Below, piece by piece: positions 39,215 through 62,243 of a stretch of 64,000 nucleotides of DNA. The DNA comes from Verrucomicrobiales bacterium (GTDB taxonomy: Bacteria; Verrucomicrobiota; Verrucomicrobiia; Verrucomicrobiales; V1-33): assembly GCA_028293125.1 (NCBI GenBank), contig JAQGPJ010000068.1, positions 62,001 to 126,000 of the forward strand. The letters run 5' to 3'. The position numbers were made by a program, and so were the translations under genes. Position 1 is the first letter of the stretch. Each line of letters opens with the position of its first letter. The notes beneath the pieces were generated by a model that ran no database searches, was not told the DNA's origin, and saw nothing but the letters and a program-made list of their open reading frames with translations.

Positions 39215-40021
39215 ATGAAGTGCCGCCGCATCCCCGCTTCCCTTTTGTTTTACTGGACCGCTGCCGGTCTGAGTGCCGGCCATGCCAGCGCCGCCGCCGT
39301 GCTGGCGGTGGACTTTGGCCGCAACGACAGCCTGGCCCTCGGGGTTGCGGGGACGACGGGGGGCAGCGCTCTGAAGCCGGGATTTCAGGGATTTTACCTC
39401 ACTGGGTCGACCTCGGGGGGCAATTTCACCGGCGTCGCCAGCCTCACCTATGGCGGGATTGATTCCATTTATGCCGCCGCCAGCAGCATCACGGTGTCCA
39501 TCCAAGGCGATCCCAACACCGCCGCCGGAAGCATGGGCGGTCGTGACCGCAACAATCCACTGGACAATGGAGCCTTCACCTACGGGGACATGCTGCGCGA
39601 CGGGATCGCGCGCACCCGGCTGACCAACTCGGCGGGTGACTACAGCCTGAAGCTGAGCGGCCTGGTGCCGGGGAGCTCCTTTTCCCTGACACTGTGGACT
39701 GCCAGCAGCGGGTCGGACTCCAACACCACCTACACCTGGTACGACACCTCCATCGGCTCGGCATCCCTGGGCTCCATTTACAACGGACCGCAGTCCGGGG
39801 GCAACCCGCTGACCGCCACCTCCAATCTGGATTTCTCCATCACCTCCAACGTGACCGCCAATGGCGACGGTGAAATTCTGCTGGGAGTCATCGTGGACAG
39901 CAACAGCGCCACCGCCGCCTTTATCAACGGGTTTGAACTGAATGCCATTCCCGAGCCCTCCGCCGCGCTGCTGCTGGCCGGTCTCTCCATGGCCGCCGGT
40001 TTCCGCCGCCGCCGGGCCTGA
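39215..40021 (+). CDS. PEP-CTERM exported protein
   Basis: 268 residues. N-terminal signal peptide (MKCRRIPASLLFYWTAAGLS). The body is a low-complexity Gly/Ser/Thr/Asn-rich beta protein ('VLAVDFGRNDSLALG', 'YSLKLSGLVPGSSFSLTLWT', 'DGEILLGVIVDSNSATAAFI'), probably a sandwich domain. The C-terminus is a PEP-CTERM tail: 'IPEPSAALLLAGLSMAAGF' followed by RRRR. It is likely exported and sorted by an exosortase, with its function in the outer matrix unknown. Confidence 0.8.
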   Translation: MKCRRIPASLLFYWTAAGLSAGHASAAAVLAVDFGRNDSLALGVAGTTGGSALKPGFQGFYLTGSTSGGNFTGVASLTYGGIDSIYAAASSITVSIQGDPNTAAGSMGGRDRNNPLDNGAFTYGDMLRDGIARTRLTNSAGDYSLKLSGLVPGSSFSLTLWTASSGSDSNTTYTWYDTSIGSASLGSIYNGPQSGGNPLTATSNLDFSITSNVTANGDGEILLGVIVDSNSATAAFINGFELNAIPEPSAALLLAGLSMAAGFRRRRA

Positions 40022-42982: not shown

Positions 42983-43624
42983 ATGAGACGATTGCCAGTC
43001 TATCTGCTGCTCGACACCTCCGGCTCCATGAAGGGTGAGCCGCTGGAGTCCGTGAAAACCGGCATCCATGCTATGCTGGGCGGGCTGCGTCAGGATCCCC
43101 ATGCGCTGGAGTCCCTTTATCTTTCCATCATCACCTTCGACCGCGAGGTGAAAACCGTCCTGCCGCTGACCAGCCTGCAGGCGCTGCAGCTGCCGGTCAT
43201 CACCTGCCCGGAATCCGGCCCCACCCATCTGGGCGAGGCGCTGGAAGTGCTGTGCCAGCGGGTGAAATCGGAGGTGGTGCTTTCCACTCAGGAAGGTCAA
43301 GGCGACTGGAGACCGCTGCTCTTTGTGATGACGGACGGGGTGCCCTCGGACCTTCAGCTTTACCGGGAGATGATCCCCCGTGTGCGCAGCGCGGGATTCG
43401 CCTCCATCATCGCCTGTGCCGCCGGTCCCAAAGCCCGTCAGGAGGACCTGAAGCCGCTGGCGGATCAGGTGGTGACCCTGGAGACCATGGACGGCAACGG
43501 GTTTGTCAGCTTTTTCCGCTGGGTGTCCGCCAGTGTGGCCGCGGGCACCGCGGAGCCGGGCGGCGGAACCGCGCCCCCGCCCGCGCTGCCCCCGCCCCCG
43601 CCGGAGATCAATCTGGTGTTCTGA
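42983..43624 (+). CDS. terY: TerY-like VWA domain protein
   Basis: 213 residues. A von Willebrand factor A domain with a complete MIDAS: DXSXS in 'LLDTSGSMKGEPLESVKTGI', a Thr in 'CPESGPTHLGEALEVL', and Asp in 'VMTDGVPSDLQ'. A Pro-rich tail ends the protein. TerY proteins are metal-dependent adaptors that associate with the kinase and PP2C of the Ter system. Its N-terminus closely resembles that of the second VWA protein (47069-48103), suggesting duplication. First gene of a six- or seven-gene run. Confidence 0.9.
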   Translation: MRRLPVYLLLDTSGSMKGEPLESVKTGIHAMLGGLRQDPHALESLYLSIITFDREVKTVLPLTSLQALQLPVITCPESGPTHLGEALEVLCQRVKSEVVLSTQEGQGDWRPLLFVMTDGVPSDLQLYREMIPRVRSAGFASIIACAAGPKARQEDLKPLADQVVTLETMDGNGFVSFFRWVSASVAAGTAEPGGGTAPPPALPPPPPEINLVF

Positions 43625-43670: not shown

Positions 43671-45530
43671 ATGTCCGCCGATCTGGCCTTCTCCAAAAAC
43701 CGCAGGCCCGGTCAGCTGCTGCTGCGTTTTCTGGACTCGGGACATGCGCTTTTTGCCGCGGAGCCGGGCCGGCTGTTGGGGCCGCTGATCCGCTTTCTAC
43801 GGGAGTTCCATCAGTCCGGGCAGGCGCACGGGGCCGTGATGCCAGGCCGGCTGCTGGTGCTGCCCGGGGGGGATTGGGATCTGGAGTTTTTCAAAAACCG
43901 CGCCGGCTCGCCGGATGCACTGGAGCTGGAGGTTTATTATCCGGACGGCGGCGGGGCGACGGCCCCGGATTTGGCTTTGGAAATCCGCCAGCGCCGGGAC
44001 ATCCGGGCTTTGGCGGCGGTCGTGCACCTGATCATCACCGATCACCCGCCGGCCCGGCGGACGAGGCGGGTGCGGAAACTTGCGGATCATCCGCTGGCCC
44101 AGGCTTGGCCGGCGGCGTTCATTGGCCTTGTGGACCGTGTGCTGGACGCCGGCCCGGATGATCCGCTGACGGCGCTGACGGATTGGATGCAGGCTCTGGG
44201 CGTGGAGGAGCCGCCCATGCCCCCGGCGGTTGCCGTACCGCCTGCCTCCGATGACGGCCTGCCATCGGTGCCGCTTCCCAATGGCATGATGGGCCGGCCC
44301 TACGCGGTGGAGCTGCCGGCCTTGGAGGAGTTCGCCGGTGGTGCGGCGGAAGGGGCGGCAGGGATGAAAATCACGGGCGGGCTTCCGGAGGGATTGCACT
44401 TTGATGACGGACTGCTCACCGGCACGCCGCGCCAGGCTGGGGAATTTGAAATAGTCCTCCACCTCCCGTCTGCCGGAGGAGGCTCCCCTGCCGGAAGGCG
44501 GATGCTGCAGCTGATGGTGAATCCCAGCCCGCAGTCGCTGTGGAAGAATCTGCCGTCCGATCCCGGTGCCCTGTTTGCCAGACCGGACACCGATACAAGG
44601 TTTCTGACCGGGCCGGGTTCCGGCGGGGAGGGGCGGTTAACGGTTATCGGAGCCAGCCGGCGGGGCCGGTCCCATGCCCATGTGGGCGGGTTCCGGGATG
44701 ACGATCTGGGCATGGCGTGGCATCCGGGCAGTGGATGGTATGTCCTGACGGTGGCCGACGGAGCGGGCAGCGCGCGGTTTTCCCGCGAGGGCGCGCGGAC
44801 GGCCTGCGCGGTGGTGCAGGCTTATTTTTCGGAACTGGAAAAGGACGGTGCCGGTGAATCCCTGGCAAAACGGACGGAGGCCCACGCCCAGTGTCCGGAC
44901 GATGCGTCCGCCGCCCAGGTTTTGAAGTCGGAGCTCTGCCGGCATTTCGAGGCCGCGGCGCTTCTGGCCCGGCGGAGTCTGGAGGCCACCGCTCAGAAAA
45001 ACCGGGCGGAACTGCGCGACTTCCATACCACTCTCATTACCGTCCTGCTGCATCCGCTGGCGGACGGGCAATGGTTTGCGGCGGCTTTTTCCATTGGCGA
45101 CGGCGCGGCGGCGGTCATTGGCCTGCCGGGCGCGGTGTCCGGCCTGCTGCTCACGCGGGCCGACAGCGGTGAATTCGCCGGACAGACGGTTTTTCTCACC
45201 TTGGACCAGTCGCTGGCCACGCCGGAAGCCGTGGCCGCCCGCGTCCGGATGGCGGTTCTGCCGGGTTTTAAGGCTTTGTTTCTGGTGACGGACGGTGTTT
45301 CCGATCCGTGGTTCCCCTCCGACACCGCATTGGCGGACCCCGCCGGCTGGTCGCGGCTGTGGGGGGAAATCCAGCCCCTGCTGCTGAACGCCCATGACTC
45401 CCCGCAGGCGCAGGCGGAGGCCCTCCTGCATTGGATGGAGTTTCACTCGCCCGGCCATCATGATGACCGTACCATGGTGCTGGCCATGTCCCCGCTCTCC
45501 CTTTCATCCCCCGCCCCGCCCCGCGCATGA
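43671..45530 (+). CDS. Degenerate kinase-like + Ig-like + PP2C phosphatase fusion
   Basis: 619 residues from ATG 43671 (MSADLAFSKNRRPGQLLLRF). The C-terminal half (about 330-610) is a PP2C-type phosphatase: 'HVGGFRDDDLGMAW', 'YVLTVADGAGSARFSREGAR', 'AAFSIGDGAAAVIG', 'LFLVTDGVSDPWFPSD' and 'HDDRTMVLAM' supply the Asp metal ligands. Residues about 195-285 look like a putative Ig (He_PIG) domain ('LPEGLHFDDGLLTGTPRQAG'). The first about 190 residues resemble a kinase C-lobe without catalytic residues ('FHQSGQAHGAVMPGRLLVLP' at the catalytic loop, 'QRRDIRALAAVVHLIITDHP'). PP2C is certain; the pseudokinase is inference. It overlaps the next gene by 4 bases. Confidence 0.85.
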   Translation: MSADLAFSKNRRPGQLLLRFLDSGHALFAAEPGRLLGPLIRFLREFHQSGQAHGAVMPGRLLVLPGGDWDLEFFKNRAGSPDALELEVYYPDGGGATAPDLALEIRQRRDIRALAAVVHLIITDHPPARRTRRVRKLADHPLAQAWPAAFIGLVDRVLDAGPDDPLTALTDWMQALGVEEPPMPPAVAVPPASDDGLPSVPLPNGMMGRPYAVELPALEEFAGGAAEGAAGMKITGGLPEGLHFDDGLLTGTPRQAGEFEIVLHLPSAGGGSPAGRRMLQLMVNPSPQSLWKNLPSDPGALFARPDTDTRFLTGPGSGGEGRLTVIGASRRGRSHAHVGGFRDDDLGMAWHPGSGWYVLTVADGAGSARFSREGARTACAVVQAYFSELEKDGAGESLAKRTEAHAQCPDDASAAQVLKSELCRHFEAAALLARRSLEATAQKNRAELRDFHTTLITVLLHPLADGQWFAAAFSIGDGAAAVIGLPGAVSGLLLTRADSGEFAGQTVFLTLDQSLATPEAVAARVRMAVLPGFKALFLVTDGVSDPWFPSDTALADPAGWSRLWGEIQPLLLNAHDSPQAQAEALLHWMEFHSPGHHDDRTMVLAMSPLSLSSPAPPRA

Positions 45531-47044
45531 GCAGCATCCGGCTTCAGGCCACTGACGGCACGTTTTTCGAGTTTGACGACTCGGCACCCGCCGGCTCCGG
45601 AGGCATGAAGGAGGTGTTCTTCTCCAAGGACCGCCGGCATGTGGTGGGGTGGTACCGGAAGAAGCCCGACGCCAACGCCATGGAGCGGTTGAAAACCATC
45701 ACCGGCGTTTACCGGGACCGCATCTTCAGCCAGGAAGGCGGCACCTACTGGGAATCCCTGTTCTGCTGGCCCAGCCACGTCATCGAGGCCCAGGGATTCG
45801 TGGGCGTGGTGATGCCCGCCTATCAGCCGCACTTCTTTTTTGCCCACGGCTCGAAAAACGAGGATTTCCTCGGCATCCGGGGCAAGGAGAAGGAGGGCAA
45901 ATGGTTCGCCTCCGCCAGTCACCAGCAGCGGCATCTGGACCAGCGGGAGCGCGGGTCGTGGCTGAGCTACTTCACGGTCTGCATCAAGATCGCCCGCGCG
46001 GTCAAACGGCTGCACATGGCCGGCCTGGCGCATTCCGATCTGTCCTATAAAAACGTGCTGCTCGATCCCGCGGGCGGAAATGCCTGCCTTATCGACCTCG
46101 ATACCCTGGTGGTGCCCGGCAAGTTCCCGCCGGATGTGGCCGGCACACCGGACTTCATCGCTCCCGAGGTGCTGCGCACGATGAAGCTGCCCAACGGCAC
46201 AGCCGGCAAGTGCCTGCCCTGCATTGAAACCGACCGCCATGCCCTGGCGGTGCTGGTGTATATGTATCTGCTCTACCGGCACCCTCTGCGCGGACGAAAG
46301 GTCCACGACGACGATCCGCAGCGGGACGAGGAACTGGGCATGGGGGAAAAAGCGCTTTTTGTGGAACACCCCACCGATCCCTCCAACCGCCCCGATCCCG
46401 CGCCGGCGAGGCCGGGCGTGGCGCCTTTTGGGGATGTGGAGAGCATCCCCTTCACGGTCTGCGGACCTTTGCTGAAGGAGGTTTTCGAGCGCGCGTTTGT
46501 GACCGGTCTGCACGACCCCGCGCAGCGTCCCTCGGCGGACGACATGGAGCGCGCCCTGGTGAGGACGGTGGATCTGATGCAGCCCTGCGCCAATCCGGGC
46601 TGTGACCAGAAGTGGTTCGTTTTTGACAACACCACGCCGCCCTGCTGCCCCTTCTGCGGCACGGCGGCGGCCGGTCCGGTGCCCATGCTGGGCTTCCACT
46701 CCCAGCGTGCGGAGGACGGTCCGTTCCTCCCCGACCAGCACCGCCTGATGGTTTACCACAACCAGTATCTGTATCCCTGGCATGTCTCCCGCCTGGTCTT
46801 TCCCAATGAGAGGGTGACCCCGGAGCAGCGGCGGCCGGTGGGATACTTTGTGTTTCACGGCGGCCAGTGGATGCTGGTGAACCAGACCCTGACGGGATTG
46901 AAGGACATCACCTCCGCCGAGGCCCGGCCTGTCCCTCCCGGCTCTTCGATTGTGCTGGCAAACGGACAAAAACTCCTGCTCAGTCCAGAGGCGGGAGGCC
47001 GTCTGGCGCATGTCATGATGACGGGTTTTCCGCCCGCTGCCTGA
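45527..47044 (+). CDS. Ser/Thr protein kinase with zinc ribbon and FHA-like tail
   Basis: 505 residues. Kinase domain (about 15-345): Gly-rich 'APAGSGGMKEVFF', catalytic 'HMAGLAHSDLSYKNVLLD' (HSD in place of HRD), 'CLIDLDTLVV' (DLD in place of DFG), 'TPDFIAPEVL' and 'ETDRHALAVLVYMYLLYRHP'. A zinc-ribbon-like Cys cluster follows ('CANPGCDQKW', 'CCPFCG', about 349-382). The last about 100 residues ('GYFVFHGGQWMLVNQTLTGL', 'PPGSSIVLANGQKLLLSP') resemble an FHA or similar beta domain. With the neighbouring VWA and PP2C proteins it forms the kinase-phosphatase-VWA triad known from Ter systems. It should be active, as the catalytic Asp and Asn are present. Confidence 0.9.
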   Translation: MSSIRLQATDGTFFEFDDSAPAGSGGMKEVFFSKDRRHVVGWYRKKPDANAMERLKTITGVYRDRIFSQEGGTYWESLFCWPSHVIEAQGFVGVVMPAYQPHFFFAHGSKNEDFLGIRGKEKEGKWFASASHQQRHLDQRERGSWLSYFTVCIKIARAVKRLHMAGLAHSDLSYKNVLLDPAGGNACLIDLDTLVVPGKFPPDVAGTPDFIAPEVLRTMKLPNGTAGKCLPCIETDRHALAVLVYMYLLYRHPLRGRKVHDDDPQRDEELGMGEKALFVEHPTDPSNRPDPAPARPGVAPFGDVESIPFTVCGPLLKEVFERAFVTGLHDPAQRPSADDMERALVRTVDLMQPCANPGCDQKWFVFDNTTPPCCPFCGTAAAGPVPMLGFHSQRAEDGPFLPDQHRLMVYHNQYLYPWHVSRLVFPNERVTPEQRRPVGYFVFHGGQWMLVNQTLTGLKDITSAEARPVPPGSSIVLANGQKLLLSPEAGGRLAHVMMTGFPPAA

Positions 47045-47068: not shown

Positions 47069-48103
47069 ATGCGCCGCCTGCCCATCTACGTTTTGCTCGA
47101 CTGCTCGGAATCCATGATTGGCACCGGCATGACCGGCGTTCAGGCCGGCATCGGCACCATGATCCGCACCCTGCAGCGCAATCCCCACGCGCTGGAGACC
47201 GCGTGGCTCTCCTTCATCACTTTTGACAGCCGGGCGGAGCTGAAAACCCCCCTGCAGCCGCTCGACGAGGTGCAGGTGCCCAAACTGAAAGTGCGTCCCG
47301 GCACCGCCTTCGGCAGCGCCCTGCTGCTGCTGGGCGAGCGCATGCTCCAGGAGGTCCGCCGCAATCAGCCGGGGGCCAAGGGCGACTTCCGCCCTATCGT
47401 GGTGCTCATCACCGATGGTCAGCCCAGCGATGACTGGAGGCCGGCGCTCAAAGCCCTGCACGAGTCGGTGCCGGTGGGGAATTTCTACGCCATCGGGGCC
47501 GGGGATGACATCGATTTCGACGGCCTCCGGGAGGTCACCGATATTGTCCTGAACCTGCAGCAGACCGATGACCAGGGCTGGGCGAAGCTGTTTGTCTGGA
47601 TCAGCGACACCCTCGGCACCGCCAGCATGGGCACGGCGGAGGGAGATGAGAAAGCCGCGATGCTGGCCCGGTTGCCGGACTCCATTGAAAAAGTGGAGGA
47701 CGGGCACTGGAGTTCAGGCGCGGAACGGGGAGGACCGCCGCGGCAGTTGTTTCTCTATGGCCTGTGCGGCGTGAAGCGCCTGCCCTACCTGATGCGTTAT
47801 GGATACGATCCGCAGTATGGGGTTTACCATCCCACCGCCGCCCACAAGCTGGACCGGGAGAACGCCGATTTCAGCGGTCGCGGGCAGAGTCTGGCGCCGG
47901 TGGACTCCCGCGAGGTCGATGGCTGTCCGGACTGCCCGCACTGCGGCAGCGAGGGGGCGGGATCGTGCGGCAACTGCGGTGCCGTGTTCTGCGGCGGAGC
48001 CCGGGGCGAGGATGGCCGGAGTGTCTGTCCCGGGTGCGGTGCCCAGCTCACCACCCGCAAGGATGGCGGTGACGGCTTCAAGATCCGCGCCAGCGAGGGC
48101 TGA
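47069..48103 (+). CDS. VWA domain protein with C-terminal zinc ribbon (TerY-type)
   Basis: 344 residues. VWA domain (1-about 200) with MIDAS 'LLDCSESMIGTGMTGVQAGI', Thr in 'VRPGTAFGSALLLL', Asp in 'LITDGQPSDDWR'. The C-terminal part has a cluster of CXXC pairs ('CPDCPHCGSEGAGSCGNCGA', 'CPGCGAQL') that should bind two zinc ions. A linker holds 'QLFLYGLCGVKRLPYLMRYG'. It is probably a phosphoprotein-binding or metal-sensing adaptor paired with the upstream kinase, 25 bases away. Confidence 0.88.
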   Translation: MRRLPIYVLLDCSESMIGTGMTGVQAGIGTMIRTLQRNPHALETAWLSFITFDSRAELKTPLQPLDEVQVPKLKVRPGTAFGSALLLLGERMLQEVRRNQPGAKGDFRPIVVLITDGQPSDDWRPALKALHESVPVGNFYAIGAGDDIDFDGLREVTDIVLNLQQTDDQGWAKLFVWISDTLGTASMGTAEGDEKAAMLARLPDSIEKVEDGHWSSGAERGGPPRQLFLYGLCGVKRLPYLMRYGYDPQYGVYHPTAAHKLDRENADFSGRGQSLAPVDSREVDGCPDCPHCGSEGAGSCGNCGAVFCGGARGEDGRSVCPGCGAQLTTRKDGGDGFKIRASEG

Positions 48104-48156
48104 CCGCGTATCGCATTCCATTCCATTTTTTGTGATCATTCCCATTCCTTTTGAGC

Positions 48157-49458
48157 ATGGAGATTCTGAAACGCGGGCAACGGCTGGGGCTTGAGGCTTT
48201 TTCCCCCGGAGGTCGGCTGGGAATCGCTCTGGAAATCACGCTGCCGGGCGCGGTGCTGGATTATTCCTGCTTCGGTCTGGACGGGCAGGGCCGGCTTTCG
48301 GACGAGCGGTATTTCATTTTTTATAACCAGAAAATTTCCCCCTGCGGCGGCATCGCCCTGGGCGGCGGTCCGGGGGAGTTTGTCATCGATTTGGCCAAAA
48401 TTCCCGCCGCCATCGAGAGGCTGGTTTTTGTGGCCACCATCGACGGGACCGGGGAGATGCGGCAGGTCCAGTCCGGGCACTGGAGGCTGAGTGACGCGCA
48501 GGGGCGGGGACTGGCGGAGTTTCCGCTGAGAGGTCAGGAATTCGGCGGAGAGAAAGCCCTGATCGCCGGGGAGCTCTATCAGCGCGGCGGCTGGCGGATC
48601 ACCGCCACGGGGCAGGGATTCGAGGGCGGACTTGGAGCGCTGCTGAAGCATTTTGGAGGAGAGGAGGCCGCGGATGCGCCTCCTTCCGCGCCTCCACCTC
48701 CGCCTCCGCCTCCGCCTTTGCCAGCTCCGGCGGCGGCAGCCCCCGTTAGGGTTTCGTTGGAGAAAAAGCTGGAGAAGGCGGCCCCGCATCTTCTGAGCCT
48801 GGCCAAGCCGCTGAAGGTTTCATTGGAGAAGCGCCGGCTGGAGGAGACGGTGGCCTGCGTGGCCCTGGTGCTGGACACCTCCGGCTCCATGTACGGCCAG
48901 TATAAAAACGGGGATGTGCAGACGGTGGTGGACCGCATCTTTCCGCTGGCGGTGCATTTCGATGACAACGGCGCTCTGGACACCTGGGCCTTTGCGGAGA
49001 AGCAGCAGGCGCTGCCCGCCGTCACCGCCGCGAATATCCGGAACTACATTACAGAAGGATCCGGGGACTGGACCCAATGGCGCGGAAAGCTGGGCCGGGC
49101 CATCAACAACGAGCCACCAGTCATCCAGGAGATCATGGAGCACTACCGGCATTCGAAGCTGCCCGCGTATGTCATCTTCATCAGCGATGGCGGGGTGTCC
49201 TCCACAGGCCGAGAAATCGCGCGCCTGCTGACCGAGGCCTCCAGCCTGCCTATCTTCTGGCAATTCGTGGGCATCGGCGGCGCCAATTACGGCGTCCTTG
49301 AAAAGCTGGACACCATGGGCGGCCGCATGGTGGACAACTGCGGTTTCTTCGCCCTCGATGACATTCGCGGCGTCAGTGAGCAGGAGCTTTACGAACGGCT
49401 GCTGCATGAGTTCCCCCAATGGCTCCAGGCGGCCCGGGCCAAAAATATTCTGCCCTGA
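48157..49458 (+). CDS. TerD-VWA fusion protein (TerF-like)
   Basis: 433 residues from ATG 48157 (MEILKRGQRLGLEAFSPGGR). The N-terminal TerD-type domain (about 1-165) has 'DYSCFGLDGQGRLSDERYFI' and 'GGWRITATGQGFEGGLGALL'. A poly-Pro linker follows (about 172-185), then a VWA domain (about 225-425) with 'LVLDTSGSMYGQYKNGDVQT', 'WRGKLGRAINNEPPV' and 'VIFISDGGVSSTG'. This is the TerF arrangement. Its N-terminal domain and that of the TerA protein (59709) share 'LLKHFGGE' at the same place, so they are paralogous. Role: probably Ca2+ binding scaffold. Confidence 0.9.
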   Translation: MEILKRGQRLGLEAFSPGGRLGIALEITLPGAVLDYSCFGLDGQGRLSDERYFIFYNQKISPCGGIALGGGPGEFVIDLAKIPAAIERLVFVATIDGTGEMRQVQSGHWRLSDAQGRGLAEFPLRGQEFGGEKALIAGELYQRGGWRITATGQGFEGGLGALLKHFGGEEAADAPPSAPPPPPPPPPLPAPAAAAPVRVSLEKKLEKAAPHLLSLAKPLKVSLEKRRLEETVACVALVLDTSGSMYGQYKNGDVQTVVDRIFPLAVHFDDNGALDTWAFAEKQQALPAVTAANIRNYITEGSGDWTQWRGKLGRAINNEPPVIQEIMEHYRHSKLPAYVIFISDGGVSSTGREIARLLTEASSLPIFWQFVGIGGANYGVLEKLDTMGGRMVDNCGFFALDDIRGVSEQELYERLLHEFPQWLQAARAKNILP

Positions 49459-50752: not shown

Positions 50753-51856
50753 TCACCGGCTCCGCCTGCGGCGCAGGGCGGCCAGGCTGAGGCCGAGGAC
50801 GGCGCTGAGGGTGGCGGAGGGCTCGGGCACGGCGCGCAGGGAGATATTGTCGAAGGCGATGGCGGAGTCGGCCCCGTTTTTTATGCCGATGATCTCCAGC
50901 AGGGCCGAATCCCCGCCGGCGGTCCAGGACGCGCTCAGGCGGTGAAAGGGATCGGTGCCGCTCACGGCATCGATAAAGCTGTCCATCAGGCTGACGCCGC
51001 CGAGCTTCACCTGGAGGTGTCCCTGGGCATAGTTTTGACGGGAGTTGTAATCCAGCTCCAGCAGATACTGCTGGCCGGCGGTCAGGCCGGTGAGGGTCTG
51101 CGACAGGCTGCCGTCGTTCTGGATAAAGGCGGCGGTGCTGCCGTCAGGGATGGCGCCGGTGGGGGTGAAGGGATTGTTGCCCGCGAAGTTGAAGCCGGTC
51201 GAGCCGGTGGCGGTCCAGCCCGCGATGGTGCCCTCATACCCCGGAAAAGCATACGAGGTGCCGGATTCGAAGCTGGGATTCCAGATGTTCACATAATCGG
51301 CCGACTGGCTGAAAAGCAGCATGCTGTCCAAGGCCAAGGTGCCGTCCTGACCATTGGGCACGGTGTTGACGATGCTCAGTGGTCCTGAAGCGGAGCCGGC
51401 AATGAACGAGGCGCTGAAAGGCTGCCACGGCGAGCCCGGGGCCACGGTCGCGCCGGACAGAAGAGTCTGGACATCATACGTGACGCTGAACACCGGCACG
51501 CCGGGAGTGCTGCGGCCCCGGAACCAGCCCTGATAGACATACCGCTGTCCGGCAATCAGCCCGCTGATGGTCTGGCTGAGGCTGCCGGCTCCCTGAATGA
51601 AAGCGAGGCGGCTGCCATCCACCCGGGTGTCATCGGAAAAAGGATAACCGGCGCCATCCGGCCCATTGATGCCGGTGCCGCCGGTGGAGGTCCAGCCGGT
51701 GATGGGATTGCCGGGACCGGAATATCCGGGGAACGTCGTGAAGGCATCCGCATGGAAACTGGGATTCACGATCGCGACACTCATCACTCCGGCCATGGAG
51801 GAAAGAGGGGCCAGCAAAAGGGCGGAAATTCCGGTGGAGGCAAGTTTGAGACGCAT
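50753..51856 (-). CDS. PEP-CTERM exported protein with two repeated sandwich domains
   Basis: 367 residues. Signal peptide (MRLKLASTGISALLLAPLSS). Two homologous halves: 'VAIVNPSFHADAFTTFPGY' and 'VNIWNPSFESGTSYAFPGYE' both start a domain with 'ITGWTSTGG' / 'IAGWTATGST' and 'SLSQTISGLIAGQRYVYQGW' / 'SLSQTLTGLTAGQQYLLELD'. The C-terminus is a PEP-CTERM tail ('VPEPSATLSAVLGLSLAAL', then RRRR). It is probably a surface matrix protein unrelated to Ter function that separates the two arms. Confidence 0.85.
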   Translation of the reverse strand: MRLKLASTGISALLLAPLSSMAGVMSVAIVNPSFHADAFTTFPGYSGPGNPITGWTSTGGTGINGPDGAGYPFSDDTRVDGSRLAFIQGAGSLSQTISGLIAGQRYVYQGWFRGRSTPGVPVFSVTYDVQTLLSGATVAPGSPWQPFSASFIAGSASGPLSIVNTVPNGQDGTLALDSMLLFSQSADYVNIWNPSFESGTSYAFPGYEGTIAGWTATGSTGFNFAGNNPFTPTGAIPDGSTAAFIQNDGSLSQTLTGLTAGQQYLLELDYNSRQNYAQGHLQVKLGGVSLMDSFIDAVSGTDPFHRLSASWTAGGDSALLEIIGIKNGADSAIAFDNISLRAVPEPSATLSAVLGLSLAALRRRRSR

Positions 51857-52057: not shown

Positions 52058-52957
52058 TCAGGCCGTGGCACTGACTTCCACAGAACGGTGCAGGGCCTCC
52101 CGGTGCAGCAGGCGGCGGGCCCATTCCCCGTGGCAGGCGGGTTCCAGCATGTCCCCGTTGGAGCCGAAGACGGCGGGGGCGGCGGGGTCCAGGATGAGGC
52201 GGGCCTCGGCGACCTCCGCCGGATCCGGAGCATAGGCTTGCCAGATGGTGTGAACCTGCCGCGGATGGATGGCGGTTTTGGCGAAGAGGCCGCGGTGCAT
52301 GTCGCCGGCGACCTCGCGCTCCAGCGTTTCATGATCGCTGATGCGGTCGCAGACCGGGGCGCAGAGGCGGACCCCGTAGGCGCTGAAGGCTTCCAGCAGG
52401 CCGTCAATGACCCGCCCGGCGGGGGTTTCATAAACAGTGCGGCCCAGAGGGCGGCGCAGGCCGCCGAGCAGGGAGAACAGATCGTTGACCCCAATGCGGG
52501 CTCCCGCAATCACCGGCGGATGGGCCGCGCAGGCCTGGGCCAGTTCGCGGCGGCCCACGGGATCCAACGCCTCACGGGTTTCCATGATCGGCAGAATCGG
52601 GTGCAGTCCGAAGCTTTTCTCAATCCACTGGTGAATGGAGGCCACGGTGGCTTTGGGCAGGATGAAGCCGGCGACCTTTCCGGCGGGCAGATTCTCCAGC
52701 AGCCATCCAAAAGCCTCCCCATCGGCTGGACGCACGAAGATGGTGCGGGGAGCGGCGGGCAGTTCCGCCAGAACCCGCACCAGAGCGGCGGCGGCGGCCT
52801 GACGGTTGTCAGGGCGCACGGCGTCCTCCAGACAGACGGCGATGGAGCATACGCCAAGATCGCGTTCCCCGGACAGCACGGCGGCCAGATCGGGACGGTC
52901 CGCCGGCACATAAAGCATCGGAGCCAGCATCGGAAGATCGTCGAGCAGTCGGTTCAT
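52058..52957 (-). CDS. HpcH/HpaI (CitE-like) aldolase/lyase
   Basis: 299 residues from ATG 52957 (MNRLLDDLPMLAPMLYVPAD). TIM-barrel lyase of the citrate-lyase-beta family: 'LYVPADRPDLAAVL', 'SIAVCLEDAVRPDNRQAA', 'IFVRPADGEAFGWL', 'AGFILPKATVASIHQWIE', 'ILPIMETREALDP' and 'RIGVNDLFSLLGG'. The acidic metal ligands are present. In Ter islands such a gene accompanies ATP-grasp, phosphoribosyltransferase and HAD genes and is thought to act in making a nucleoside-like metabolite; the exact substrate is unknown. Last gene of the minus arm, 47 bases after the previous one. Confidence 0.85.
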   Translation of the reverse strand: MNRLLDDLPMLAPMLYVPADRPDLAAVLSGERDLGVCSIAVCLEDAVRPDNRQAAAAALVRVLAELPAAPRTIFVRPADGEAFGWLLENLPAGKVAGFILPKATVASIHQWIEKSFGLHPILPIMETREALDPVGRRELAQACAAHPPVIAGARIGVNDLFSLLGGLRRPLGRTVYETPAGRVIDGLLEAFSAYGVRLCAPVCDRISDHETLEREVAGDMHRGLFAKTAIHPRQVHTIWQAYAPDPAEVAEARLILDPAAPAVFGSNGDMLEPACHGEWARRLLHREALHRSVEVSATA

Positions 52958-53004
52958 GAGGGACAGGAGGAAAGGAGAGAAGGAAAGAGAAGCGGGAGGG
53001 AAAA

Positions 53005-54093
53005 TCAGGCTGAGGCGATGACCGCCACGGCGTCGAAAGCAAGATCCGCATCGGTGCGCACCGGCACCTGGCGGAGACCGGCCAGCCGGTGGATCAGACC
53101 GGCGTCGGTGGGATTGGCGGCGGGGCCGAGCCACACCACCTCCGGCTTGCGGCGCAGCAGCACGCGGACGGTTTCGCCGATGCCGAGTTTGATGCGGTTG
53201 CGGTCCGTCATGCCGTGGCGGGCCAGCATTTGATCCAGACACTGCTCCGTCTCCGCACGTCGTTCCGGGCCGCCGCTGGCGTTGGCGGGCGGGGTCGTTG
53301 GGACGGGAATTTTTGCCAGACGGGCGCGCATTTCCCGGATAAACCAGCGGCTGAGATCATAGCGGCGCAGGGAATCCAGCGGCACACAGCCATGGAATTC
53401 CCCGCTGTGCTCCTCCCCGGCGGGCAGCACGCTGCGCGAAACCAGACCGGACAGGGTGCCGCCCAGCAGGGTGGAGGGAATCAGATAGTCCCCGCTGCTG
53501 GCGGCGAACTCCGCCGCCCCGCACACATCCAGCGGCACCCACAGGCCGGACCGCAGACCGGCGGGCGACTCCGCGCAGCCACCCAGTGAATGATGGAGCT
53601 CGCGGGCGATGGTGCCCTTGCCTGTCCAGCCGTCCACAAAGCGCAGGCTGGCCGGCGCATGGCGCTCCATGATCCAGCGCAGGGCGGCATAGTCCACTCC
53701 CCGGTCGCGGATCACGGAGATGGAGTAGTGGGCCACCCGCAGCCAGGGCGCGGTTTCCCGCAGCCGGTGCCACAGCAGCACGCCGACGGGGGTGCCGGCG
53801 CGGGCAATGGACACCACCGTCAGCTCCCCATCCACCGCGCTGGCGGCCATGGCGGCGGCCAGGGTGGATATATCCTCAGCCATGCGGACTCCATTGGCGC
53901 CAAGGCATTCGCGGAAAAGCCGCAGACGGCCGCGCGTGGGGGCGTCCTCCGGTCCTATCATCTCGCTGTAATGCCGCTGGCCACTCTGGATCAGGCGCTC
54001 GCGCTCATCGAGAGCCGTCGTGGCGAGGGTGAGACGGCGCATCAGGAACGCCACTTCGGCAGGATGGTAACTTCCGGGGAAAGATTCGATCAT
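53005..54093 (-). CDS. StiP-like protein with PRTase-like and PELOTA domains
   Basis: 362 residues from ATG 54093 (MIESFPGSYHPAEVAFLMRR), which overlaps the upstream stop by 4 bases. The N-terminal and central part matches the Ter-associated PRTase-like/StiP family ('ERLIQSGQRHYSEMIGPEDA', 'VVSIARAGTPVGVLLWHRLR', 'HYSISVIRDRGVDYAALRWI', 'RFVDGWTGKGTIARELHHSL'). The C-terminal about 65 residues fit a PELOTA RNA-binding domain ('RIKLGIGETVRVLLRRKPEV', 'NPTDAGLIHRLAGL'). The name StiP comes from proteins called cysteine proteases, but the reaction is not firmly known. Confidence 0.82.
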   Translation of the reverse strand: MIESFPGSYHPAEVAFLMRRLTLATTALDERERLIQSGQRHYSEMIGPEDAPTRGRLRLFRECLGANGVRMAEDISTLAAAMAASAVDGELTVVSIARAGTPVGVLLWHRLRETAPWLRVAHYSISVIRDRGVDYAALRWIMERHAPASLRFVDGWTGKGTIARELHHSLGGCAESPAGLRSGLWVPLDVCGAAEFAASSGDYLIPSTLLGGTLSGLVSRSVLPAGEEHSGEFHGCVPLDSLRRYDLSRWFIREMRARLAKIPVPTTPPANASGGPERRAETEQCLDQMLARHGMTDRNRIKLGIGETVRVLLRRKPEVVWLGPAANPTDAGLIHRLAGLRQVPVRTDADLAFDAVAVIASA

Positions 54094-54851
54094 ACAGCAA
54101 CAGCAGAAACCGCGCTGGCCGGCCAGGAAAGGTCGAGGGTGGAGCCGGTCGGCGTGGCCAGCAGGCCGCCGAGGCGCATGAATTCCAGATCCAGCGGCAT
54201 ATCGCCCATGCAGAGCAGAGGAGGCTGCCCGGCGAACCAGCGGCGCTGCACCTCCAGGGTGGCACCGCGCTTGCCCACCCCGGGCGGCAGGACCTGCAGC
54301 TCCGATCCCAGCACCTCCACGCGGCAGTCCAGCCAGTCCATGGCCGCGATCATGTCGCGGGCCTCCGGGGTGCGCCACCACTCCACGGTGGCTTTGGCCA
54401 CCAGATAGGCGGGCAGTCCGCCGGGACCGGGCACCAGCCGGGCGCGGGCCAGACCCCGGCTCTTTTCCGCCAGCCAGGCGCAGAAGTCATGCAGCCGGCT
54501 TTCCCAGGGGGCCAGCCGCTCCGTCATGACCGCCTCCCACTCCGGGTCGGGCAGGCCGTCCCAGCCGAGGATGATGGCGCCATTGGCCACCACCGCGGGG
54601 CCGCGCAGATGCAGGCCGGTCACCTCCACGCGGGCGAAGGAGTCCATGTCCCGCGCCGTCACCGGCACGAGGGCGAAGGAGTGGGCCAGAGCCGCCAGCA
54701 GGCGGTGCGTGGCCGCCCTCATCCAGCTCGAGGGCTGGCGCGAGCCGTCCTCCAGCGCATTCCAAGTGGCGGCGACCGCATCGTCCGCCTGCCAGGCGCG
54801 GGTGAAGAGCGTGCTGTCCAGATCCGTGGCGATCCAGTCTTTCATCATCAT
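54090..54851 (-). CDS. HAD-superfamily hydrolase
   Basis: 253 residues. The start is one of three ATGs (54851, 54848, 54845); 54851 overlaps the upstream stop as ATGA. Haloacid dehalogenase fold with the nucleophile motif DXDXT in 'WIATDLDSTLFTRAW', the Thr of motif 2 in 'LVPVTARDMDSFARV', and a C-terminal 'PLLCMGDMPLDLEFMRLGGL' carrying the metal-binding Asp pair. Probably a phosphatase acting on a phosphorylated intermediate made by the neighbouring ATP-grasp and PRTase. Confidence 0.88.
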   Translation of the reverse strand: MMMKDWIATDLDSTLFTRAWQADDAVAATWNALEDGSRQPSSWMRAATHRLLAALAHSFALVPVTARDMDSFARVEVTGLHLRGPAVVANGAIILGWDGLPDPEWEAVMTERLAPWESRLHDFCAWLAEKSRGLARARLVPGPGGLPAYLVAKATVEWWRTPEARDMIAAMDWLDCRVEVLGSELQVLPPGVGKRGATLEVQRRWFAGQPPLLCMGDMPLDLEFMRLGGLLATPTGSTLDLSWPASAVSAVAV

Positions 54852-55984
54852 AAGCGTATTTCCAGCCGGGGGATGAGCCGGACCGGATGGTCCGGAGCGG
54901 GCTCCGCATCCTCCAGGCAAAGCACCACCCGGTCGTAGCCGTGGTCCTCCGGCACATTGTAGAGAAACTCCGCGTGGCCCTCTCCGGACAGCGCATCAAA
55001 GGCCCGGATGTGCCCGATGGCGCCGCCGGGCAGAATGGGCGAGCGGGTGGTGGCCTGCACCCAAGCTTCGGCTCCCCGCTCCTCAAAAGCCTCGGCCAGC
55101 AGCAGGGGCTGGAATCCGTATTCCCCATTGCCCAGCACCAGGATTTTCTCGCCGTCACGCGCCTTCAGGTCCCAGGCCGCCGGCAGCGGCTGCGGGGTCC
55201 GGGCCCCATGGCGGATGCCGCGCCGGGCGGTGACCCGGCTGTCCAGACGGTCCACCGCGGCGGGGAAGTCCATGGGCTGGCCATCCTCCTCAAAAGCAAA
55301 GTGTCCCTCCGCCAAGGACTCGATGCCGGCGAAGGCGCTGTCGTGCTCCCCGCCCTGGTTCCAGCGCAGGATCACCGCCAGCCAGGCCTTGAAAGGAATG
55401 CCGTCCGGCCCCCGCCAGGCTTTCAGAGTTTGAATCAGCCCGGCGGCGGTTTTGGCCGTGGTGGCCTCGTCGTCCACCACCACCACCTGCCGGGCGGTGC
55501 GCAGCAGATGGTCAGGATCGTCCTCCGGGGAGGGCAGGTGAATGACATGGGCCGTGGCGTGGGAGTGGCTTTCCGCGAACTCAAACGCCCGGGGGCCGCC
55601 GGTGGAGCGGCGGGTGCTTTCCAGATAGAGTCCGGTTCCGCCCTGCGCGAGAAATTCCCGGAACACCGCCTGGCCCAGGGTGGTGGCGGTTTCGGCCATG
55701 CCGATAAAAACCGCCGGCCCGTCCGTCAAATGCGGTCCCACTTTCGCGGCCATCGCCGCCGACACCCGGCGCAGGTCCGCCGGGCGGACCGGGCAGTGAC
55801 GGCCCAGCACCTGACTGACAAAAAGGAACCGCCGTTTGGCGTTGTTGCGCACCGCGAGGTCGCACAGACCGCGGAGGGGCAGGTCCTCGCGGGCCATTTG
55901 CAGCGAAAACTTTCCGCCGGGCAGACGGGCTTCATAAAAACCGGGCGGCCCTTCGCGCCATTCGGTGGGCAAAGGGCGGCTCAT
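54848..55984 (-). CDS. Phosphoribosyltransferase-like protein (TRSP family)
   Basis: 378 residues. The PRPP-binding loop is recognisable as 'QVVVVDDEATTAKTAAGLIQ', and the N-terminal half has 'PAVFIGMAETATTLGQAVFR'. The C-terminal domain ('GEKILVLGNGEYGFQPLLLA') fits the TRSP domain of Ter-associated PRTases. The predicted role is to attach or move a phosphoribosyl group to the product. It overlaps both neighbours by 4 bases, so the module is strictly cotranslated. Confidence 0.85.
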   Translation of the reverse strand: MSRPLPTEWREGPPGFYEARLPGGKFSLQMAREDLPLRGLCDLAVRNNAKRRFLFVSQVLGRHCPVRPADLRRVSAAMAAKVGPHLTDGPAVFIGMAETATTLGQAVFREFLAQGGTGLYLESTRRSTGGPRAFEFAESHSHATAHVIHLPSPEDDPDHLLRTARQVVVVDDEATTAKTAAGLIQTLKAWRGPDGIPFKAWLAVILRWNQGGEHDSAFAGIESLAEGHFAFEEDGQPMDFPAAVDRLDSRVTARRGIRHGARTPQPLPAAWDLKARDGEKILVLGNGEYGFQPLLLAEAFEERGAEAWVQATTRSPILPGGAIGHIRAFDALSGEGHAEFLYNVPEDHGYDRVVLCLEDAEPAPDHPVRLIPRLEIRL

Positions 55985-57096
55985 GACGGGAGGGAGGGCA
56001 CAGTGAAAACCTCCGGGCGCTCCTGCACCCGCACCGGCAGTTCCGGCTCCGGAATTTCCGGCAGCGGCTCACCGGAATCGAGAAGCGCCACGCGGATGGC
56101 CCACAGGGCCAGATTGAGTCCCGCCAGCCTGATATACGGCAGACCGCCCGACATGCGGCCATTGATCTCCAGCAGGCAGGGCCGCTCCGGCAGCTCCGCC
56201 CGCGTGCGGAACTGCACGTTGAACAATCCGCCCAGATGGAAATGCCGCGCCAGCAGCCGCACCATGAACTCAATGCCCGGTTCGGGGGCCAGCAGCTGGG
56301 ACTGGCCCTCCTGCACCAGCAGGGTGCGGGAGGTGCCGGTGAGACGCACGCGGCCATTGAGCGGCTTGCGCCGGCACACCATGGCCAGCACTTCGCCGGC
56401 GTGGGCCAGGACATCCACGCTGAACTCACTGCCGTCCAGATACTCCATCACCAGCAGTTCCGGAAAGGAGTCCGCCGGCTGGAGGATGGATTGCAGTTCC
56501 GCTTTGGAGATGCGGTGCACCTCGCTGCGCAGCAGCCGCTTCTGCGGCGTCATGGCGTCGTCCAGAATATAAAAGCCCTGCCCGAAGGTGCCGGTGGCCG
56601 GTTTGAAGCAGACGGGCAGGCCTTCGCTTTCCAATTGCGCGCAGGCGGCGGCGAACTCCTCCCACGTGCGCACCCGGTGAAAGTGGTGAACGGCCACGCC
56701 CTCCGGCACTTGGGCGAGAAAGCGGCCCTTGTCCTCCAGCAGCCGCAGGGTGGGGCCGTCCCCGGCCAGCACCAGTCGGACCCCCAGAGCCTCAAAAGAC
56801 TTCCGATGGTCCGCGATCACATCGCGCATGCGGCCCGGCACAAAGACCTGCACCCGGTGCTCCCGGCAGAAGGTCAGACACCAGTCCGCATAATCCGCCG
56901 CCGTCAGGCCCGCAGGCTCGACGGCGGCGGTGTCACAGACCGCCAGAGGCGCAAAATCCCGCGCCGTGTGGCTGCCGATCAGATGAAGACCCGGCCCCCA
57001 GTCCTCCCGGAGCTGGCGCAGCACTCCGTGAATGCTGGAGAAGGATTTGTTGAACCAGACACGGACAGAAGCGTGCGGTAAGGGGGAAACGGGCAT
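55981..57096 (-). CDS. ATP-grasp ligase
   Basis: 371 residues from ATG 57096 (MPVSPLPHASVRVWFNKSFS). Conserved ATP-grasp features: 'LRLLEDKGRFLAQVPE', 'EGLPVCFKPATGTFGQGFYI' (Lys of the B domain), 'ELLVMEYLDGSEFSVDVLAH' and the metal-binding end 'ERPCLLEINGRMSGGLPYIR'. Such enzymes join an acid to an amine or other nucleophile with ATP. In Ter islands it is coupled to PRTase and HAD genes, as here. Confidence 0.88.
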   Translation of the reverse strand: MPVSPLPHASVRVWFNKSFSSIHGVLRQLREDWGPGLHLIGSHTARDFAPLAVCDTAAVEPAGLTAADYADWCLTFCREHRVQVFVPGRMRDVIADHRKSFEALGVRLVLAGDGPTLRLLEDKGRFLAQVPEGVAVHHFHRVRTWEEFAAACAQLESEGLPVCFKPATGTFGQGFYILDDAMTPQKRLLRSEVHRISKAELQSILQPADSFPELLVMEYLDGSEFSVDVLAHAGEVLAMVCRRKPLNGRVRLTGTSRTLLVQEGQSQLLAPEPGIEFMVRLLARHFHLGGLFNVQFRTRAELPERPCLLEINGRMSGGLPYIRLAGLNLALWAIRVALLDSGEPLPEIPEPELPVRVQERPEVFTVPSLPS

Positions 57097-57113
57097 GGAC
57101 AGGAGGAACGGTC

Positions 57114-57698
57114 TCAGAGAGCCGCCTGCATGGCGGGCATCAGGTGCTGGAAGGTCTTGCCCGAGGTGTTGTCCCCGATGGCGTGCATCTTCCACTCGCC
57201 GCTGTGCAGATAGACCTTGGCCATGATCATGGCCGTGTGGTCGCCGGTGCAGCTCAGGTCATAGCGCGCCAGCTCGGTGCCGGTGGCACCGTCCACCACC
57301 CGGCAGTAGGCATTCTCGATCTGGCTGAAGTTCTGGCCTGTGAAGCTGTTGACGACAAAGAGGATGGACTTCGCCACGTCCGGCACGCGGCTCAGCTCCA
57401 CGAGGATCTGCTCGTCGTCGCCATCGCCCGCACCCGTGCGGTTGTCGCCGCTGTGCTTGATGCTGCCGTCCTTGCTGGCCAGCTGACCGAAATAGACTAC
57501 GTCCAGCGGGTTTTTGGCCTCGTCAAACAGCACGCAGGAGGCGTCGAGGTCGATTTCCTGATCCTTGGCTCCGAGGCCGAAGAACCCCTTGGTCTTTTTG
57601 GCATCCCAGCCCAGCCCCATCACGATCCGGGAGAGTCCGGCGGCGCCGGCCTCCTTGGTGAGGGAGATTTTCTGTCCTTTTTGAAGATTAATAGGCAT
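57114..57698 (-). CDS. TerD family protein (TerZ-like)
   Basis: 194 residues. The TerD fold, a Ca2+-binding beta-sandwich, is shown by 'IVMGLGWDAKK', 'IDLDASCVLFDE', '[19 protein letters not shown]' and 'CRVVDGATGTELARYDLSCT'. It has an extra loop ('TKGFFGLGAKDQEIDLDASC'), as in TerZ. It lies 17 bases upstream of the ATP-grasp start, joining the Ca2+ part to the biosynthetic module. Confidence 0.9.
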   Translation of the reverse strand: MPINLQKGQKISLTKEAGAAGLSRIVMGLGWDAKKTKGFFGLGAKDQEIDLDASCVLFDEAKNPLDVVYFGQLASKDGSIKHSGDNRTGAGDGDDEQILVELSRVPDVAKSILFVVNSFTGQNFSQIENAYCRVVDGATGTELARYDLSCTGDHTAMIMAKVYLHSGEWKMHAIGDNTSGKTFQHLMPAMQAAL

Positions 57699-57746
57699 GG
57701 CCGTCCAGGTTGAGGCGGAAATAAAAAGAATGAATGGGAGAGAGGA

Positions 57747-58322
57747 TCACACGTTGACCCCGTAACTTTTGGCCATGGCGGCCAGACCGCCGGCGAAGCC
57801 CTGGCCCACGGCGCGGAATTTCCACTCGGTGCCATTGCGGTAAACCTCGCCGAAGATCAGCGCTGTCTCCACGCTGAAGTCCTCGCTCAGGTCGTAGCGC
57901 ACGATCTCGCTGTTGTCCGCCGCGTTGACCACGCGCACAAAAGCCTGGCTGACCATGCCGAAGTTCTGCCGGCGGGCCTCCGCCTCGTGGATGGTCACCG
58001 TCAGGGCGATCTTGTCCACGGTGGCGGCCACGGCGGCCAGATTGACAGTGATCTGCTCGTCATCGCCGTCCCCGGCACCGGTCAGGTTGTCGCCCAGATG
58101 CTTCACGGAGCCGTCGGCGGAGGCGGCCTGGTTGAAGAAGATGAAATCACCGTCGCTGGAGACCTTGCCGTCGGATTTGAGCAGGAAGGCGCTGGCGTCG
58201 AGGTCGAAGGCCGCGCCGTCCGTGGCGCGGGTGTCCCAGCCGAGGCCGATCACGATGTTGGTGAGTCCGGGAGCGGACTTGGTCAGCGAAACGTTGCCGC
58301 CTTTGGTGAGGGAGATAGCCAT
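57747..58322 (-). CDS. terD: TerD family Ca2+-binding protein
   Basis: 191 residues from ATG 58322 ([20 protein letters not shown]), matching E. coli TerD (192). Signatures: '[20 protein letters not shown]', '[20 protein letters not shown]', '[19 protein letters not shown]' and '[20 protein letters not shown]'. The '[13 protein letters not shown]' segment supplies most Ca2+ ligands. Cytoplasmic, possibly membrane-associated through TerC and TerB. Confidence 0.95.
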
Positions 58323-58416
58323 ATCTGGATTGAGTTGGGTTTGATTGTTGTGGTTGCTGAGGAAAAAGTGAATGCGGGGAATGAGTCCGCGGGAGCCGGG
58401 TGGGTTGCCGGTCTGT

Positions 58417-59709
58417 TTATTTGGACCCCTTGCTCCATTGGAAGCCGAAGCCGTAGTGGCCATCGGCCTCCCGGTGGCCTTTGCTGAAATAGCGGGTCTC
58501 CTTCACCAGCTCGACCCCCTGCGCGGTGCGGGTGATCATGGCGATGGCGCAGAAGGTGGCCCCGGTGGTCGGAGAGTCCAGACGCACCAGGGTTTCGCTG
58601 CCGTCCGACTCCTTGAAGGTCAGCCGGGCATTGACGGTGCTGAAGTTGGCCACCCCCTCGTAAACAAAGGCATAGACCAGCACCCGCTCAATCAGGTCGG
58701 GCCGGAGGATATAAAGGTTCTCGCCGTCCGTGGCCTGGCCGCTGCGGTCGTCCTTGTCGAGGTGGATGAAGGGAGGCGCAGTCCGGCTGCCGAAACTGCC
58801 GCCCAGCGCCTGGATGCAGCCTTTGGAGCCGTCGCGGGTCACATACAGGCAGCCGAGGTCCAGATCCGCCTCCTGACTGCCGCCGAAGAAGGATTTTTTG
58901 AGATTACGGTCCCAGTTGAGATTGATGTGGATGACCTCCTGGCCGGGACTCTTCCGCAGGCTGATGGTCTTGCGCTCGCCGGGTTTTTCCAGTGTCAGCT
59001 TTTTAAGGGAAAGAGGAGCCTGAGGAACCGGTGGTGGTGCCGCCGGCAGCGGGAGCGGCGGCATATTGACGGGCACCGGCGGTGGGCCTGCCGGGATGGG
59101 GGGAATCGGCGGCATGGAGGGCGGAATGGCCGGTGGGGGCTGGGGCGGCGGCGCGCCGCCCGGCTTCTGCTCCTCCAGGATTTCCCCGCCGAAGTGTTTC
59201 AGCAGCCCCCCGAGGCCGGCAGCGAACCCCTGGCCGGTGGCGGCGAAGCGCCAGCCGTCCTTCCAGTAAAGCTCGGCCAGCATCAGGGCCTTCTCGTCCT
59301 TGTAGTCGCCGGCCTGGGGCTGGAACTCCGCGATGTCCGTGCCGCCCGACGACAGCCGGACGCCGCCGCCGGTGATCTGCCGCATGGAGCCGTTGCCGTC
59401 CACCGTGGCGGTGAACACAAGGCGTTTGATTTTGTCAGGCAGTTTGGAGAAATCGGCCTCGAACACTTGGCGCGCCTTCCCTGACGGCCCTTTGGCCGTC
59501 AGGGAGCCGCAGGGGGACTGGGGCTGATTGTAAAAGACGAAATACCGGTCATCCGAGAGCTTCCCCTCCGCATCCAGCCCGAAACAGCTTACGTCCACCT
59601 CCGGATTGCCGGAAAGCTCCAGGGACACCGACAGGGTGACGGCGGGGGCCGCCGCCGTAATGCCAAGGCTGGCCAGGGAGGCTTTCTGGCCGCGCGTGAA
59701 TGGTTTCAT
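58417..59709 (-). CDS. terA: TerA-like protein: two TerD-type domains with Pro-rich linker
   Basis: 430 residues. The N-terminal TerD-type domain (1-about 175) has '[20 protein letters not shown]' and '[18 protein letters not shown]'. A Pro-rich linker follows (about 185-240, '[15 protein letters not shown]'). The C-terminal domain is typical of TerA: '[14 protein letters not shown]', '[20 protein letters not shown]', '[20 protein letters not shown]' and '[16 protein letters not shown]'. The N-terminal domain is closer to that of the TerF-like protein than to the small TerDs. Confidence 0.9.
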
Positions 59710-59796
59710 GCTGTTGGAATACGGGCAGGTGGTTGGGATCCCGGAGGGAAGGTCGGGAAAGGAAGGAAATGAGGCCGGAGAGGGACAAGCGGCCTG

Positions 59797-62227: not shown

Positions 62228-62243
62228 TGGGGGAAAAGTGTGG

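Follow-up and report, generated by a model that had tools for sequence, protein, structure and literature searches.

The linkage of kinase, PP2C phosphatase, and vWA genes is already known (PMC7159879). In E. coli K-12, yegL-pphC-yegI forms the same vWA-PP2C-kinase gene set as the locus described here, and the Klebsiella variicola plasmid pKv8917 carries a similar operon with vWA, TerD, vWA, TerY_C, PP2C, and kinase side by side. The kinase of this plasmid triad (L156:7180-8679) carries the annotation "lipopolysaccharide kinase InaA family protein", but is probably a misnamed TerY-P protein kinase. Pseudomonas encodes PP2C-kinase fusions, in which the PP2C is N-terminal to the kinase domain (PMC1262709). 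Pseudokinases can have non-catalytic roles, and the bacterial families ActPs1-3, GLW, CP1, DYD, and DLHK have lost the catalytic motifs and retained the fold (PMC12599244). In Bacillus subtilis, the PP2C-family phosphatase RsbU is controlled through its N-terminal regulatory domain by a partner protein, RsbT, whose binding to RsbU switches the phosphatase on (PMC12143880).

We analyzed a window of 64,000 nucleotides from a Verrucomicrobiales bacterium (contig JAQGPJ010000068.1) that encodes a PP2C of the same operon type, P0001. The P0001 ORF (43671-45530, +) is a single, uninterrupted frame that starts with the ATG at 43671 and specifies 619 amino acids, with a kinase-like domain (residues ~14-177), an Ig-like beta-sandwich (~197-286), and a PP2C phosphatase (~320-605) in order from the N- to the C-terminus. 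An assembly artefact or an erroneous gene fusion was excluded, as orthologues with the same architecture occur in several independent genomes, including a single-contig genome of 8.2 Mb. The full-length model (pLDDT 82.5, pTM 0.58) consists of three separate domains, and a Foldseek search with it returned PP2Cs first, then Ig/cadherin-like sandwiches, and then PpkA and PknB.

The upstream operon partner of P0001 is a TerY/YegL-like vWA protein (42983-43624, +; Pfam VWA, E 4e-11), which is 34% identical to E. coli YegL over 121 amino acids (E 4e-16). Downstream lies P0002, a divergent protein kinase with a zinc ribbon and a C-terminal domain (45527-47044, +; Pkinase, E 2e-8), whose ATG overlaps the stop codon of P0001 (ATGA). 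It is followed by TerY, with a vWA and a metal-binding TerY_C domain (47069-48103, +; Pfam TerY_C, E 7e-12), and by a TerF-like protein with TerD and vWA domains (48151-49458, +; vWA-TerF-like, E 7e-77; TerD, E 6e-29). Further along, the minus strand carries ter biosynthetic genes (PRTase_2/TRSP, ATPgrasp_Ter, StiP-PELOTA, and C-C_Bond_Lyase) and genes for two TerD proteins. With vWA, PP2C, and kinase genes adjoining one another and the genes for TerD, TerY_C, and ter biosynthesis close by, the P0001 locus represents a complete ter-type stress system that includes a vWA-phosphatase-kinase (TerY-P) triad. Several other features were seen in this part of the window. At 52061-58502 (-), C-C_Bond_Lyase, StiP with PELOTA, PRTase_2/TRSP, ATPgrasp_Ter, and TerD make up a complete-looking biosynthetic module, an additional TerD ORF lies at 58420-59796, and a flotillin/SPFH protein is encoded near the ter genes at 60500-62281 (-). 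By eye, PEP-CTERM-like sorting signals end the proteins encoded at 39215-40021 (+) and 50753-51856 (-).

The first-pass annotation, made from the sequence alone, had placed a putative Ig domain and a full PP2C after the N-terminal part, and both were borne out by the strands of the model, Foldseek, the PP2C_2 match, and intact motifs. The PP2C domain (44628-45485, +) matched Pfam PP2C_2 at residues 331-573 (E 9.7e-36, 123.7 bits against a cut-off of 24) and had PP2Cs as its Foldseek matches. Its motifs RDDD, DGAGSA, TDG, and HDDRT are intact, and the metal-binding residues D343, D344, D363, D541, D598, and D599 are invariant across 16 relatives. By score and metal-binding Asp residues, this part is a member of the PP2C (PPM) phosphatases, with predicted metal-dependent Ser/Thr phosphatase activity. 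The preceding beta-sandwich (44259-44528, +) has about seven strands in the model and gave Foldseek matches to dystroglycan, SraP, and Rib domains. Since the Pfam He_PIG score at residues 206-264 (18.4 bits) was below the cut-off of 24 and a beta-sandwich was predicted, we label this He_PIG/cadherin-like domain only as "Ig-like". The Ig and PP2C part of the plasmid protein is 36% identical to P0001 over residues 200-603, and E. coli PphC, which lacks the Ig domain, gives a profile match with an E of 5e-16.

The N-terminal 190 residues had been read as keeping the layout of a kinase C-lobe. Pfam recognized no kinase family, or anything else, in residues 1-190 of P0001, and a Pfam kinase match was absent for every member of the domain family examined; nor did Pfam, NCBIfam, and PADLOC provide a credible family match to the domain. 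These negative results would be expected if the domain were unrelated to kinases and the likeness only a chance one between helical domains. When related genomes were searched with P0001, however, bona fide Ser/Thr kinases were retrieved, and BLASTP aligned residues 19-179 in register with two Akkermansia-type Ser/Thr kinases, beginning ahead of helix E and running to helix I (E 4e-6 and 5e-7, as single-comparison values). We then used a profile of nine orthologous N-termini, shortened forms included (A2). Against the PDB, A2 gave 97 matches at E <= 1, of which the best 60 were all protein kinases or kinase-fold proteins, including RNase L; PknE (E 0.0014) and PpkA (E 0.0029) were the best, and the alignments spanned the C-lobe from helix D to I. 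In a search of 289 genomes of the window's order, A2 found matches in 83. Twelve loci (L125-L136) were strong orthologues, and all 18 further loci examined were kinase ORFs, one of them a full-length pseudokinase (L138).

The orthologue profile scored 27-34 bits on these 18 kinase ORFs, whereas none of 60 column-shuffled profiles exceeded 7.1 bits and the reversed one scored 0.5 bits. The profile-profile comparison proposed by the first-pass annotation, run with hhalign, gave 96.4% (E 1e-9, 164 columns) against Ser/Thr kinases and 0.1% against a vWA control; most kinases in the hhalign and shuffling comparisons had themselves been retrieved with A2, a bias from which the concordant PDB search is free. 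An AlphaFold2 model on A2 (residues 1-190) was confident (pLDDT 85.5, pTM 0.83) and consisted only of helices, plus short strands at the expected location of beta7/8. The best 50 Foldseek matches of this model in the PDB were all protein kinases (probability 0.98-1.00), with a TM-score by query of up to 0.63 for Staphylococcus Stk1/PknB. The fold was thus not one unrelated to kinases, the outcome that had been named as refuting the earlier reading. The Foldseek E values (1.7e-3 or worse) and the rmsd, mostly 4-8 A, leave some room for a chance likeness, but the listed profile and fold matches, kinases throughout, the 18 kinase loci, the hhalign contrast with the vWA control, and the failed shuffled and reversed controls make it extremely improbable, and as far as sequence and model go, we regard it as refuted. 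The N-terminal domain of P0001 is, by sequence register and predicted fold, a homologue of the kinase C-lobe, although it extends over residues ~14-177 (43710-44201, +), from helix D to helix I, and not over all 190 residues. Duplication of the adjacent kinase P0002 was considered as its closest source and rejected, because hhalign against the P0002 family gave only 2% over 31 columns; in sequence, the domain resembles the PknB/PpkA type, unlike the neighboring kinase.

With PknB/PpkA-type Ser/Thr kinases, P0001 shares the C-lobe fold, the helix D-I register, the HRD His, and the helix-F Asp; unlike them, it lacks the N-lobe, HRD Asp, DFG Asp, and catalytic Lys and Asn, and is fused to a PP2C. 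The string FHQSGQAHGAVMPGRLLVL, previously described as catalytic-loop-like but lacking the Asp, is present. In the BLASTP and hmmalign registers, the catalytic-loop remnant HGAVMPGR (residues 53-60; 43827-43850, +) aligns with HRDIKPGN of kinases, so that HGA stands in the HRD register, with the His kept and the Arg, Asp, Lys, and Asn lost. H53, G54, A55, V56, and R60 are invariant in seven full forms. The string DLEFF, which had been likened to DFG, is also present, but in the BLASTP register the DFG Asp corresponds to E72 and not to D70; the remnant is EFF (residues 72-74; 43884-43892, +), without the Asp and Gly, and the Asp position is occupied by E, D, A, or G among the orthologues. RRDIRALAAVVHLIITDHP, compared earlier to the alpha-F region, is likewise found in the ORF. 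The equivalent of the helix-F Asp, D110 (43998-44000, +), and the HRD His, H53, are invariant in 9/9 N-terminal orthologues, including the shortened ones. Both residues are parts of the structural core of the C-lobe. In the activation-segment/P+1 region, the full forms carry a lineage-specific motif, YYPDG (residues 89-93; 43935-43949, +), in which Y90, P91, and G93 are invariant in seven full forms; this segment is a candidate interaction surface.

No N-lobe, with its Gly-rich loop and VAIK Lys, was found in P0001 or any orthologue, and the full forms all begin at one position, helix D. A cryptic N-lobe upstream was ruled out, as the DNA there is taken up by the last part of the vWA gene and a spacer of 46 bp. 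With the N-lobe, HRD Asp, catalytic Lys and Asn, and DFG Asp all missing, P0001 lacks what defines an active Hanks-type kinase. The suggestion of a dead kinase attached to a phosphatase therefore holds as to kinase homology and the loss of catalytic residues, but the domain is an isolated C-lobe, short of a whole pseudokinase and predicted to be catalytically dead. As in the bacterial pseudokinase families, the catalytic motifs are lost and the fold is retained, but, unlike in those families, half of the fold is missing (PMC12599244). The text of that 2025 review mentions no C-lobe-only domains, PP2C fusions, or Verrucomicrobia. The Pseudomonas fusions likewise join a PP2C and a kinase-derived domain in one chain, whereas in P0001 a dead half-kinase precedes the PP2C, and the kinase has a gene of its own (PMC1262709). 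We found no description of a half-kinase PP2C in the open-licence literature searched. Thus, of the new regulatory arrangement proposed earlier, the operon and PP2C-kinase fusions are known, and the part that appears to be new is a dead C-lobe, devoid of an N-lobe, joined to this PP2C. With these qualifications, the reading of P0001 as a pseudokinase-Ig-PP2C fusion is supported.

The distribution of this architecture was examined by scanning 84,980 species genomes with the Ig-PP2C part, from which 80 loci were kept. A P0002-type kinase gene is downstream in 80/80 and a vWA or TerY gene upstream in nearly all. TerY-P phosphatases of this kind otherwise occur in vWA-PP2C-kinase operons of many phyla without the C-lobe; in Bacteroidota, Pseudomonadota, Nitrospirota, and others, they begin instead with a short stretch that is helical or of low complexity. 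Unlike P0001, every plasmid, enterobacterial, Bacteroidota, and E. coli K-12 form examined lacks the C-lobe. Relatives of the PP2C without it are present on more than 2,200 sequenced plasmids, mainly enterobacterial; on 2,208 plasmids, no locus reached a query coverage of 80%, and the best matches listed spanned only the Ig-PP2C part. Within the window's order, the C-lobe form occurs across several families. Because the 13 C-lobe-bearing PP2Cs formed one clade (SH-aLRT 98) in a quick tree, the C-lobe was acquired once, within the Verrucomicrobiales lineage of the window. This clade splits into six full forms (SH-aLRT 98) and seven shortened forms (SH-aLRT 100), the latter without the activation-segment region and hence without YYPDG. 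The shortened forms were not recognizable as kinases alone: a profile of four of them reached only 9.3 bits, and one of all seven gave a single weak kinase match (16.5 bits). Their link to kinases is drawn from their homology to the full forms (hhalign 97%, E 1e-10). A TerY-P phosphatase without a C-lobe was also found in another genome of the order (G234, locus L098); it groups with Bacteroidota, suggesting horizontal transfer.

Selection on the C-lobe was compared with that on the PP2C by per-domain Nei-Gojobori estimates of omega for each pair. Omega was 0.03 for the C-lobe and 0.06 for the PP2C in L018/G051, 0.06 and 0.07 in L018/L017, and 0.18 and 0.30 in P0001/L015, with dS at about 1 in the last two pairs; amino-acid identity in P0001/L015 was 73% for the C-lobe and 65% for the PP2C. 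Purifying selection on the C-lobe is therefore at least as strong as that on the PP2C in the closest pairs, which argues that the domain is maintained and does not drift. Between more distant relatives, it is the C-lobe that changes more quickly. The loss of the N-lobe and all catalytic residues, together with the shorter, more eroded version in the sister clade, might point to a decaying vestige of an earlier kinase-phosphatase fusion with no role of its own. We consider this distinctly unlikely, given the strong selection in close pairs, the compact and confident model, the invariance of the non-catalytic motifs HGAV and YxPxG, and the persistence of the domain in several families of the order.

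The preservation of the fragment under selection suggests, instead, that a dead kinase piece has been reused to steer a phosphatase. In the proposal that we favor, a PP2C of a TerY-P stress operon would have gained a PknB/PpkA-type C-lobe at its N-terminus in the ancestor of the lineage, and the fragment, judging from sequence and model, would have shed the N-lobe and all catalytic residues and stayed as a folded helical module. This C-lobe may serve as a docking or regulatory domain, in which the surface of helices D to I and the conserved YYPDG would bind the neighboring active kinase or its substrates, and thereby bring the PP2C to a phospho-substrate or gate its activity. The Ig-like domain could act as a spacer or a second binding site, and translational coupling with the kinase gene would keep phosphatase and kinase in proportion. 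We give this proposal as a whole, a single gain followed by a docking or regulatory role, an even chance. The unfailing presence of the kinase gene downstream and the ATGA overlap in the window favor docking, while the deletion of the activation-segment region in the sister clade and the faster evolution of the C-lobe in distant pairs weigh against it. The highly conserved operon suggests that the phosphatase counteracts the kinase encoded beside it, and specific binding of the C-lobe to that kinase is plausible from the same context. As to the narrower reading, that the free-standing C-lobe is a selected adaptor coupling the phosphatase to its cognate kinase or the substrates of that kinase in a self-contained writer-eraser complex, we are slightly inclined to doubt it. 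The C-lobe is inessential to the core mechanism, as it is absent from the majority of TerY-P phosphatases, which presumably function without it.

The C-lobe might also be a dominant-negative decoy or allosteric inhibitor folded onto its own PP2C until a partner releases it; the neighboring kinase would then play no specific role. RsbU, a working analogue for P0001, shows that partners can control bacterial PP2C-family phosphatases via N-terminal regulatory domains (PMC12143880). Unlike RsbU, P0001 has an Ig-like domain between the N-terminal part and the PP2C. The N-terminal fold of RsbU is unrelated to the kinase C-lobe. The full-length model has no confident inter-domain packing, with its pTM of 0.58 and a pLDDT below 50 in the linker at residues 183-196, and we regard an inhibitor of this type as rather unlikely. 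The fusion provides a direct entry point for studying how ter-operon phosphatases reach their targets. Pseudokinases are usually treated as whole bilobal domains; if the C-lobe alone has been retained by selection, half of the fold can act as a protein-interaction module.

The full-length pseudokinase retrieved with A2 (L138:1075-2238, +) belongs to a genome of the window's family and has HGS in place of HRD and GGF in place of DFG. It is less degraded than the PP2C-linked C-lobe, is unfused to a PP2C, and carries a hydrophobic C-terminal segment that is probably membrane-spanning.
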